A program made the position numbers and the translations under genes. Shown here piece after piece: positions 37,215 to 60,388 of a DNA stretch of 64,000 nucleotides. The DNA lies in assembly GCA_020723485.1 (NCBI GenBank), contig DYIU01000003.1:186001-250000 (forward strand), in the 5' to 3' direction. This DNA is from Acidimicrobium ferrooxidans (lineage in GTDB: Bacteria; Actinomycetota; Geothermincolia; Fen-727; Anoxymicrobiaceae). Within the stretch, counting starts at the first letter, position 1. Every line of letters begins with the position of its first letter. The notes under the pieces were generated by a model, which saw nothing but the letters and a program-made list of their open reading frames with translations, made no database searches and had not been told where the DNA came from.

Positions 37215-37374
37215 CCGCAGGTTTGAATAACTATATTTAACAATAGATTTCAATAATATTATTTATTGAACACCTGCCCCAGCCTCTTGGCAAATACCGG
37301 CCCGACTGCGTAATTATTGAGGTTAAAAAATAGTATTGCTATATATTGATAATTACTGAGATTCAAACCTGCGG
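37215..37374. other. AT-rich island bounded by inverted repeats
   Basis: The 14-bp sequence CCGCAGGTTTGAAT at 37215-37228 recurs inverted at 37361-37374. Between them are two strongly AT-rich arms (including a perfect palindrome TTCAATAA..TTATTGAA at 37249-37270 and ATATATTGATAATTA near 37340) around a GC-rich centre. Nothing codes here. The contrast with the surrounding composition and the paired ends suggest a small inserted element. No gene is seen in the whole 37036-37575 gap. Confidence 0.55.
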
Positions 37375-45007: not shown

Positions 45008-45025
45008 TCATCCCCCTGCAACATT

Positions 45026-45100
45026 GGGGTCAGGTCGTTTTGTTGCATTCCGAGCGGCATCGATGTCGCGGAATGCAAATGCGACAAAACGACCTGACCC
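45026..45100. repeat. palindromic element 1 (GGGGTCAGGTC family)
   Basis: Left arm GGGTCAGGTCGTTTTGT (45027-45043) and right arm ACAAAACGACCTGACCC (45084-45100) are perfect inverted copies. Inside, TGCATTCCG and CGGAATGCA form a second pairing with small offsets. It sits between the FAD oxidoreductase start (45007) and the dehydrogenase stop (45111). Left edge GCAACATTGGGG matches the edge of elements 2 and 4. Confidence 0.85.
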
Positions 45101-45110
45101 TGTTCTGCGT

Positions 45111-45995
45111 CTACAGCTTCCAGTAGGAGACCTGCTCGCCGGTCGAGTAGTCGTACCAGCCCTTGCCGGTCTTGCGTCCCAGCAGCCCCGCCGCGACCAT
45201 CCTCTGCATCAGCTCGGGCGGAGCGTAGCGCTCGTCCTGGGTCTCGTTGTAGATGGCCTTCATCGCGTTCATCAGGACGTCGATACCGGTGAGGTCAGAG
45301 GTCTCGAGCGGCCCCATACGGTGCGCGAAGCCGAGCTTCATCGCCTTGTCGATGTCCTCCGGTGTCGCCACGCCGCGCTCGACCAGGCTGATCGCCACCG
45401 CGGACATGGCGAGGCCGACCCGGTTGGCTATGAACCCGGCGACGTCCTTCTGGACCACCACGGTCTCCTTGCCGATGGTGTGAGCGTAATCGATGGCGGC
45501 GTCGAGCGTCTCGTCGGAGGTCTGGAGGCCGCGGATGAGCTCGCAGAGCCTCATCATCGGCACGGGGCTGAAGAAGTGGGTCCCCACTACCTTCTCCGGC
45601 CGCTTCGTAACCGAAGCAATGCTCGTTATGGAGATTGCGGAGGTGTTGGTCGCGAGTATGCAGTCCGGCTTGCATATCTCATCGAGCTGTTTGAACACGT
45701 CCTGCTTGAGCTCTATCTTCTCGAACACGGCCTCGACCACCAGGTCAGCGTCAGCCGCGTCGGCCATCTCAGTCGTGGTCTTGATGTTGGCGAGCGCCTT
45801 TTTGGCCTGGTCCTCGGTTATCTTCTCCTTGCTGACGAACTTTCCGAGTGAGCGCTCTATCTCCTTCATGGACTTGTCCAGCGGTTCCTGGGCTATGTCC
45901 CGCATCACGACCTCGTAACCGGCGGTGGCGGTCACCTGGGTGATGCCTCCACCCATGAGCCCCGCCCCTACCACGAACACTTTCTTGACAGCCAT
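45111..45995 (-). CDS. 3-hydroxyacyl-CoA (3-hydroxybutyryl-CoA) dehydrogenase
   Basis: 294 residues from ATG 45995 (AVKKVFVVGAGLMGGGITQV), chosen for the GGGGG site upstream. NAD fold GAGLMGGGI, catalytic region THFFSPVPMMRLCELIRG with the His, and the C-terminal domain DKAMKLGFAHRMGPLETSDL then GWYDYSTGE. It oxidises or reduces 3-hydroxyacyl-CoA in butyrate/crotonate metabolism or beta-oxidation. No thiolase or crotonase is adjacent in this window. Confidence 0.92.
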   Translation of the reverse strand: MAVKKVFVVGAGLMGGGITQVTATAGYEVVMRDIAQEPLDKSMKEIERSLGKFVSKEKITEDQAKKALANIKTTTEMADAADADLVVEAVFEKIELKQDVFKQLDEICKPDCILATNTSAISITSIASVTKRPEKVVGTHFFSPVPMMRLCELIRGLQTSDETLDAAIDYAHTIGKETVVVQKDVAGFIANRVGLAMSAVAISLVERGVATPEDIDKAMKLGFAHRMGPLETSDLTGIDVLMNAMKAIYNETQDERYAPPELMQRMVAAGLLGRKTGKGWYDYSTGEQVSYWKL

Positions 45996-46104
45996 CTCTA
46001 ATACCCCCTTGTCGGTGAACGGGCTACTCTTGTTTTTCAAGTCCGAAAGTCTATCACATCGCGGCGGCGTCGAAGCCGGGCAGCGGGGGCCGAGCGGGGG
46101 CTTG

Positions 46105-54078: not shown

Positions 54079-54232
54079 CTGCTGTTTCCCTTTCATGGTC
54101 GGGTCCGGCCGCCCGGACGGGCTCCCGGCACTGCTAAAGAGAATTCTATTCTAGCGGATTTCCGCGCCTGCCACGGGCGGGAGGCCCGGGTGACGGGGTT
54201 TCCGCAACTGTGATAATCTCAACCCCGCAAAC

Positions 54233-54324
54233 GCAACATCGGGGTCAGGTCATTTTGTTGCATTTGCGGCCCGTTTAACGAAAACAATTGGAAATGCAAC
54301 AAAATGACCTGACCCCGATGTTGC
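54233..54324. repeat. palindromic element 2 (GGGGTCAGGTC family)
   Basis: Perfect 33-bp inverted repeat: left arm 54233-54265 (GCAACATCGGGGTCAGGTCA then TTTTGTTGCATTT), right arm 54292-54324, 26-base loop. It lies in the divergent gap between the FadH-like gene and the amidohydrolase, ending seven bases before the AGGAG site of the latter. Confidence 0.92.
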
Positions 54325-56154: not shown

Positions 56155-56269
56155 GGGTCAGACCACTTTCGTTCCATTTGCAACACAAGCCACTTCAACC
56201 ACAACGACCATCGTTGCCGTGTTACGTGAGTCAACTGATGTTGCCAATGGAACGAAAGTGGTCTGACCC
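56155..56269. repeat. palindromic element 3 (GGGTCAGACC variant)
   Basis: Perfect 24-bp inverted arms (56155-56178 and 56246-56269), GGGTCAGACCACTTTCGTTC plus CATT, extended inward by a further pairing with one mismatch (CCATTTGCAACA / TGTTGCCAATGG). It lies exactly between the TAG of the tiny Cys-rich gene and the TAG of the convergent radical SAM gene. It is a sequence variant of the GGGGTCAGGTC elements with the same design. Confidence 0.9.
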
Positions 56270-58415: not shown

Positions 58416-59384
58416 GTGGAGCACGTATCAACCCTGGAAAAGTTCAAAGGCACGCTCGTCGGGTGCGCTGTCGGCGACGCCCTCGGCGCTCCCGTGGAGG
58501 GGATGACGCCCGAGGCCATCGCCGAGATGCACGGGCGTGTGACGGGATTCATAGACGCCCGGTTCGGCGCGGGGCGGATAACCGACGACACCCAGATGAC
58601 GGTCCTTCTCGCGCAGACCATCGTCGAGATAGGCAAGTTCGACCTCGAGCAGGCGGGAATCAAGTTCGGCAGGTGGATTGCCGCCTCCGATGCGGGCGTC
58701 AAGGAGGCGCGCGGGGTCGGGATGGCGTGCGGCGTGGCCTGCCGCAGGCTGAATGAAGGCGCGGACCCACTGACGAGCGGGGTGGATTCAGCCGGTTGCG
58801 GCGCCGCCATGCGCGTGAGCCCGGTCGGCCTGCGCTACTACCACGACCCGGACGAGCTCCGCCGGACGGCTGTCCTGCAGTCCCGCATCACCCACACCCA
58901 CCCCGAGGCCGCCGCCGGGGCCGCGGCCGCGGCGTTCTCGGTCGCGCTCGGGGTTGCCGATGATGGGGGGCTCGACCGCCCGGGACTCGTCGAAAGAGTG
59001 GCGGGCTTCGTCGAGCGCATAGACCGCGGCATGTCCGTCAAGATCTCGGGGCTCACCGACTACCTGGACGCGAGCCCGGCCGAGGGGTTCGCCTACACCG
59101 GTACCGGCGGCCACGTGATGGAGACGGTGCCGGCGGCGCTTTTCGCTTTCCTTCGCAGCCCCTACGATCCCGAGGAGACACTCCTGACGGCGGTCAACGC
59201 AGGTGGGGACACGGATTCGCTGGCGGCGATCGCCGGGTCGGTGAGCGGGGCTTTCAACGGTCTCGCGGCTCTGCCGGCGCGCATGCGCGACGAGGTCGAA
59301 GGCAGGGATTACCTGGAAGGCCTGGCGCAGCGCCTGTACACACTCACTCCGGCGGGCAAACCGTTCCGTCGCCCCCTCTTCTGA
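58416..59384 (+). CDS. ADP-ribosylglycohydrolase family protein
   Basis: 322 residues from GTG 58416, chosen for the upstream GGAG site and because the family begins just after (KFKGTLVGCAVGDALGAPVE). Metal-binding motifs are intact: TDDTQMTVL near residue 58 and NAGGDTDSLAAIAGSVSGAF near the C-terminus. It may reverse ADP-ribosylation, for example of nitrogenase regulators in related proteins, but no such target is nearby. Its TGA stop abuts palindromic element 4. Confidence 0.9.
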   Translation: MEHVSTLEKFKGTLVGCAVGDALGAPVEGMTPEAIAEMHGRVTGFIDARFGAGRITDDTQMTVLLAQTIVEIGKFDLEQAGIKFGRWIAASDAGVKEARGVGMACGVACRRLNEGADPLTSGVDSAGCGAAMRVSPVGLRYYHDPDELRRTAVLQSRITHTHPEAAAGAAAAAFSVALGVADDGGLDRPGLVERVAGFVERIDRGMSVKISGLTDYLDASPAEGFAYTGTGGHVMETVPAALFAFLRSPYDPEETLLTAVNAGGDTDSLAAIAGSVSGAFNGLAALPARMRDEVEGRDYLEGLAQRLYTLTPAGKPFRRPLF

Positions 59385-59479
59385 GCGCAAAATCGGGGTC
59401 AGGTCATTTTGTTGCATTTCCAGAGCTCTGCTCACTACAGGATTAAATGCAACAAAATGACCTGACCCCGATTTTGCGC
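59385..59479. repeat. palindromic element 4 (GGGGTCAGGTC family)
   Basis: Perfect 35-bp inverted repeat (59385-59419 and 59445-59479) around a 25-base loop, containing GGGGTCAGGTCATTTTGTTG. It fills the entire space between the stop codon of the ADP-ribosylglycohydrolase and the stop codon of the convergent HAD gene, with no other base left. Its edge GCGCAAAATCGGGG resembles element 2. Confidence 0.93.
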
Positions 59480-60388
59480 CTAGAGCGAGAGGAGGGTCTC
59501 GACCACCTCGGCCCAGCCATCGCCCATCTTCCCCTCGGTGACAAAGACGTTCTCGGCCTCGTCGATGGCGACGGCGAGGTGCGGGTTGTTGTCGAGGCCG
59601 TTCCTCACCATGAAGAACGCCCCCGCCGCGCCGGAGAACGGGAGGTCGGCCTCCGCGTCGCCCACCGCGGCCGTCGCCTCCCGGGGGATGCCGCGCAGCT
59701 CCTGGTCCTTGCGGACCGCCTGGTCCTTGCTCACCCCGCGCGGCACCAGGTGGTAGGCGCGCGTCACCGGCACGTCCAGGGTCGGGCTCTTCCTTGGGAT
59801 GACGCCGTTGTCCACCAGCTCGAAGGAGTCGAATCCCCGCTCGCTCAACAGCGCGTGCGCCTCGTCCAGGTCCACCATCCCGCGCATGAGCGGCGTGCAG
59901 TCCCTCTCGTCGGACCACGGTGTGTGCATTTCCAGGCGCCCTGGGAAGCGCTCGAGAAGGAGCTCCACGACGCCGGTGTCCATGATGCTCCGGTAGACTG
60001 AGTCGCACGAGGGCTCGAAGTCACCCAGGTTCATCACTACCTCGGTCCCGAGGTTGTACACGAGCTCGGTGCCTAACTCTGCGACGTAGTTCATGCACCC
60101 AAGCAGGCGCGCCGTCTCCCTGAGCTGCGCCTTGTGCCTTCCGGAGACGAGCATGATGTCGACGTTGCGGGCGTGCGCGGCCAGGAGGGCCCGCGCCGGC
60201 CTCAGGGTCAGCTCCCAGTCGCTGTCACGGAAGAAGCACCCCAGCGGGCCGACCATGGTCCCGTCCAGGTCCGTGTAGATGACGCGCGGCGCGAGCAGGT
60301 TGTCGCGCAGCCAGGGGAGGTTGGAGCGCACGCTCTTTCGCGCGGCCACCTCTTCGATGTAGGCCTCCTGCGCGTGATGGTCGTTCAT
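59480..60388 (-). CDS. HAD phosphatase, likely glucosyl-3-phosphoglycerate phosphatase
   Basis: 302 residues, Cof/MPGP-like HAD: motif I IYTDLDGTMVGPLG, VDIMLVSGRHKAQLRETARL, and motif IV TAAVGDAEADLPFSGAAGAF, with a C2-type cap between. Located two genes from gpgS on the same strand, which makes removal of phosphate from glucosyl-3-phosphoglycerate a reasonable guess (inference). ATG start overlaps the upstream membrane gene stop by four bases (ATGA). Confidence 0.8.
   Translation of the reverse strand: MNDHHAQEAYIEEVAARKSVRSNLPWLRDNLLAPRVIYTDLDGTMVGPLGCFFRDSDWELTLRPARALLAAHARNVDIMLVSGRHKAQLRETARLLGCMNYVAELGTELVYNLGTEVVMNLGDFEPSCDSVYRSIMDTGVVELLLERFPGRLEMHTPWSDERDCTPLMRGMVDLDEAHALLSERGFDSFELVDNGVIPRKSPTLDVPVTRAYHLVPRGVSKDQAVRKDQELRGIPREATAAVGDAEADLPFSGAAGAFFMVRNGLDNNPHLAVAIDEAENVFVTEGKMGDGWAEVVETLLSL

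Follow-up and report, generated by a model that had tools for sequence, protein, structure and literature searches.

REP-type repeats favor the 3' ends of genes. In Pseudomonas, REPINs are inverted REP doublets that form hairpins, with a spacer of set length and poor conservation and with compensatory changes (PMC3116915). GTAG and CGTC REPs occur mostly between tandem or convergent genes, <20 bp from 3' ends, and some of them supply a TAG stop codon (PMC3733652). The TIR motif of TIRYT genes is GGGGWSAS (PMC3733652). Most TIRYTs belong to HuH subclass 2.1, for which an NHFH motif, a YVVLNP motif, and an HTH-like tail are listed, and TIRtrons are probably this same subclass (PMC6006769). In E. 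coli, TnpA-REP cleaves between C and T (PMC8266576), and inverted repeats downstream of stop codons, as well as intrinsic terminators, have been described (PMC6060812).

The palindromic element studied here lies between two convergent genes in a 64,000-nucleotide stretch of DNA (the window, to which all coordinates without a locus prefix refer). It is one of about 100 copies of a dispersed hairpin family in its genome, which we call the GGTC family. The site, its neighboring copies, and one copy of a sister family (the ACC family) are laid out as follows.

59385-59479, no strand: palindromic element (inverted pair) with a 37-bp stem; the 21-nt apical region also folds
59386-59419, plus strand: left arm, C-GCAAAATCGGGGTCAGGTCATTTTGTTGCATTT, a match to the family arm pattern
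59420-59444, no strand: variable loop, near constant in length (~26 nt) and unrelated in sequence between copies
59445-59478, minus strand: right arm, the left arm inverted, with the same variable dinucleotide (AT)
59382-59384, plus strand: TGA stop of the ADP-ribosylglycohydrolase gene (58416-59384)
59480-59482, minus strand: TAG stop of the HAD-type phosphatase/hydrolase gene (59480-60388)
54232-54324, no strand: inverted GGTC-family pair in a divergent intergenic region, with no adjoining stop
45018-45110, no strand: a further inverted GGTC-family pair; 1 nt separates its right end from the TAG of the minus-strand gene 45111-46040
56155-56269, no strand: palindrome, a copy of the sister ACC family

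The element between two stop codons

A sequence-only reading of this DNA had reported that the element starts right after the TGA and ends right before the HAD stop, and the sequence confirms it: the 95 bases between the TGA (59382-59384) and the CTA (59480-59482) are filled exactly. They form a 37-pair stem with a folding energy of -66.1 kcal/mol, versus -20.5 for shuffles (z = -14.2, 0/200). The same reading counted all 95 intergenic bases as element. The full fill stands, but the unit defined by the family consensus is slightly shorter (~93 bases), consisting of GCAA...TTGC (59387-59477) and one pyrimidine per side (59386 and 59478). In the family, the base outward of GCAA/TTGC is C or T, and the two sides vary independently (51% agreement, 51% expected); we therefore place the element proper at 59386-59478, bounded on either side by a single spacer base, the outermost G (59385) and C (59479), which pair by happenstance. 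The flanking genes are assigned by Pfam to ADP-ribosylglycohydrolase (PF03747, 9e-69) and Hydrolase_3 (1.5e-9).

Anatomy and relatives of the family

The arm pattern GGGTCAGGTCNNTTTGTTGCATTT, which describes the GGTC-family arms (GGGGTCAGGTC), has 105 + 97 matches in the 3.36-Mb genome, compared to 0 for the reversed control. We collected 94 elements of a family total of about 100 and read them together with their surroundings; 53 are inverted pairs (~94 bp) and 41 are solo arms (~34 nt). The arms are near invariant across copies. The loops are too diverged to show recent whole-copy duplication, with the possible exception of two copies 2.7 kb apart. Solo arms are self-complementary (AACGCAACA...TGTTGCGTT), and the idea that they are decayed pairs was rejected, as a second arm occurs at chance level. 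Fifteen copies lie between divergent genes and five inside called genes. Other members of the class essentially lack this family. Pattern scans of the whole species gave 0 matches and then 3 single matches, about chance level by our own estimate, and a search of Rfam gave no match above the gathering score and only generic hairpin (miRNA) matches below it.

Much of this anatomy is that of REPINs. The conserved units are inverted at fixed spacing (53 pairs, loop mostly 24-29 nt), the spacer is poorly conserved (loops resemble each other no more than shuffled ones do), and changes in the hairpin are compensatory, since the variable arm dinucleotide is the same on both sides in 51/52 pairs (AC 24, GT 14, AT 12, GA 1), with ~27% expected from the column makeup. 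Also shared are the copy number (~100 or more), the extragenic position, and the occurrence of solo units. Unlike REPINs, the GGTC family has no GTAG foot and no cognate RAYT in the form of a Y1 gene with GGTC-family flanks in this assembly, its arms are paired over their whole length (33-37 bp), and its register with stop codons is exact.

With the TIR elements of TIRYTs and with TIRtrons, the family has in common the GGGGTCAG core, partly self-complementary units, and dispersed dimers. This core occurs in nearly all GGTC-family arms, is shared with the sister ACC family, and fits the TIR motif GGGGWSAS. The difference is that the GGTC family has no flanked Y1 transposase of its own in this assembly, whereas the ACC family has one (L052). 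GTAG and CGTC REPs are likewise close to gene 3' ends; in contrast to them, the GGTC family carries no unpaired GTAG or CGTC end tag (its outer flanks vary) and stands 0-3 nt from native stops of all three types, TAG supply being confined to the ACC family. The inverted repeat right after a stop codon is also reminiscent of E. coli intrinsic terminators, but the GGTC element belongs to a dispersed family, has a much longer stem and a 26-nt loop, and in its paired form lacks a T-tract.

Register with stop codons

Sampled stretches totaling about 600 kb of the genome were annotated with our own codon-model gene finder, in which stops are exact and some small genes may be wrong. Distances to the flanking genes were counted from the pyrimidine preceding GCAA, which we took as the edge of the element. 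The survey shows that a fixed register directly behind the stop codon is a trait of most GGTC-family copies that face a gene 3' end. The median distance to the 91 gene 3' ends facing elements is 1 nt (exactly 0 in 35 and 0-3 nt in 63), while for the 87 gene 5' ends it is 65 nt. At tandem sites, the stop is ≤3 nt away in 37/55 cases. Random placement in the remaining spacer predicts 6, and the expectation rises to 17/55 if the last 30 nt ahead of the start codon are excluded and to 28 if 60 nt are excluded. Solo arms at tandem sites that turn their outer end toward the stop are 0-6 nt from it in 15/15 cases; oppositely turned arms are mostly distant (-21, 3, 32, and 71-93 nt). Convergent pairs with an element have a total residual gap of ≤4 nt in 12/15 cases versus 11/37 for element-free control pairs (p = 0.0016).

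The 95-base gap is thus filled at our site because the element's family sits directly behind genes' own stops. The sequence-only reading had judged a landing of such precision unlike chance, and the 63 of 91 ends at 0-3 nt make it more than a coincidence at one site. Its suggestion, one of two alternatives, that the element "selects gene ends" is borne out, genome-wide and to the base, where position is meant; as to route, it is compatible with either targeting or selection.

Origin of the register

We consider it probable that the feature is a REPIN-like, non-autonomous transposable hairpin, brought into register with stop codons by targeted insertion combined with purifying selection. The mobile unit would comprise two inverted units of ~34 nt with the GGGGTCAG core and a 26-nt loop, and its spread very probably took place in the form of a single-stranded DNA hairpin. 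Given that no Y1 gene has GGTC-family arms at its ends, we infer the mover from this anatomy and from the sister family, which flanks such a gene; it would be an IS200/IS605-like HuH (Y1) transposase of the TIRYT/RAYT kind. The two convergent genes probably almost touched beforehand, as in several relatives, in which case a unit placed behind one stop would automatically be flush with the other. The least certain steps are those that would produce the register itself, namely, insertion at a short target provided by the stop (C-T-R-R and then a pyrimidine) and the purging of copies that landed in genes or promoters.

Some features of the flanks bear on the proposed target. A C precedes the stop in 21/35 of the exact (0-nt) cases versus 123/375 controls (p = 0.0025). 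This excess may reflect a CTRRY target, although it is a weak, post hoc hint that does not extend to copies lying elsewhere than at stops. Element ends that do not adjoin a gene 3' end carry a stop triplet in only 6/81 cases, and a plain DNA motif needed by every insertion was therefore rejected; a soft preference for A- or purine-rich flanks remains. No target-site duplications were seen by eye at convergent sites. That the insertion machinery recognizes the stop signal itself (C-T-R-R-Y), so that all three stop codons would offer a genome-wide safe harbor in which proteins stay unaltered, is a tentative idea that we regard as rather doubtful.

It is unlikely that the position instead reflects selection for function, with the host keeping the element as a two-way 3'-end device (a terminator, an insulator against colliding transcripts, or a shield for mRNA 3' ends). 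Several observations would suit such a device: the placement at gene 3' ends, the unusual tightness of convergent sites that bear an element, the near-invariant arms beside random loops, the pairing maintained at variable arm positions, the TTT(T), and no longer T-run, with which solo arms end, and the occurrence, in two relatives (G006 and G011), of different palindromes that directly follow this HAD stop. However, a terminator has no need to sit at 0 nt, and the copies between divergent genes and inside called genes do not fit this role. The sequence-only reading had anticipated an "efficient two-way terminator barrier." Instead, a T-run (≥5 T among the ten bases following the hairpin) was found in just 1 of the 50 flanks of pairs that abut a stop, and a terminator scan at 59385-59479 called none, with a T-tract lacking on both strands. 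An intrinsic two-way terminator role for inverted pairs is therefore unlikely; Rho-dependent roles or roles at the mRNA end (RNase III, blocking of 3' exonucleases) are possible. Under the reading of targeted insertion and purifying selection, the element, if transcribed, would form a strong 3' UTR hairpin in the RNA and not an intrinsic terminator.

A further alternative is that copies inserted anywhere in ordinary spacer and that a deletion bias then removed neutral spacer up to the stops. The genome is indeed compact (~90% coding in the sampled stretches), but we consider this highly unlikely. Copies with perfect arms are as near stops as worn ones (rho = -0.05), which argues against slow trimming as the source of the register, control convergent gaps are rarely 0-4 nt (3/29 of those that do not overlap), and deletions ending exactly at the element edge in most copies are implausible.

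Native gene ends

It is likewise highly unlikely that the element landed in last codons and that its terminal bases form the stops, as happens in the sister ACC family and as reported for GTAG REPs (PMC3733652), because stop usage and protein lengths near GGTC-family elements look ordinary. Stops 0-5 nt from an element are TGA in 28, TAG in 23, and TAA in 16 cases, matching usage in control genes (173, 134, and 68; p = 0.53). Relative to the nearest relative (G001, of which 1.1 Mb was read), 15 element-adjoining proteins have a C terminus of the same length in 9 cases, shorter in 5, and longer in 1, with no shift versus 84 control proteins (38, 26, and 20; p = 0.48). Inspection of the sequence showed that none of the frames entering a GGTC arm meets a stop codon there. 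At our site, the ADP-ribosylglycohydrolase has a C terminus of the same length as that of its closest comparable orthologue (G003); the HAD protein falls 1-3 residues short of its counterparts in relatives that lack this element, which counts in favor of supply. From the native-like stop usage and the orthologue-like C termini, we conclude that the element did not create these gene ends, and the proposal that it "supplies the gene ends" is not supported for the GGTC family.

The comparison with orthologues that the sequence-only reading had suggested gives near-identical C termini and some tiny spacings, contrary to the notion that the element defines gene ends. The gap between the two convergent genes is 5 (G003), 14 (G007), 5 (G010), and -4 nt (G002) in four element-free relatives and 171-396 nt in three others. 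With an ancestral gap as tiny as in some of these lineages, any element inserted behind one stop would abut the other.

The same intergenic position holds other repeats elsewhere. Directly behind the HAD stop are different palindromes in G011 (L098, GGTGCCAGGCACC type) and G006 (L099, AAACGCAACACTTGGGGTCAGGCCCC type), which look unrelated and may mark a recurrent landing or retention site. In G001 (L094), the spacer between the two genes is 257 bp long and contains direct repeats of GAGTGGCGTCGGACAATTTCACACGTAGACC. Related families in G006 and G011 are close to stops without an exact register, in small numbers. One family in G006 (e.g., L228), AAAACGCAACA..GGGGTCAGGCCCC..TGTTGCGTTTT, is apparently homologous to the solo arms described here and has terminator-like A- and T-flanks.

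The sister family and candidate transposases

The sister ACC palindrome family (GGGTCAGACCACTTTCGTTCC) has 56 + 59 arm matches in the same genome and about 60 copies, six of which lie within 8 kb at one locus (L210). Near stops, ACC-family copies have a TAG in 38/51 cases, and 23 of those TAGs use the element's own first G. The GGTC register, in contrast, is exact to the base and holds for three native stop codons. This contrast between two families of one genome makes targeting versus selection directly testable. It is also a warning to annotators, as repeat boundaries and gene ends here coincide for a mechanistic reason.

ACC-family arms flank a cognate Y1 transposase gene (L052:2936-3688, 250 amino acids), and its product has the NHFH and YVVLNP motifs and the HTH-like tail listed for HuH subclass 2.1. 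In the 95%-complete assembly, no transposase gene with flanking GGTC-family arms was found; the other two Y1 genes (L053 and L054) have no such arms at their ends, and the single Y1 gene found in G006 has no flanking GGGGTCAG repeats. An AT-rich inverted repeat of 160 bp (CCGCAGGTTTGAATAAC...) lies at 37215-37374 of the window. A similar one (L053:3766-3922) starts at the 3' terminus of the gene for the second Y1 transposase (L053:2941-3780) and is perhaps the mobile repeat of that transposase.
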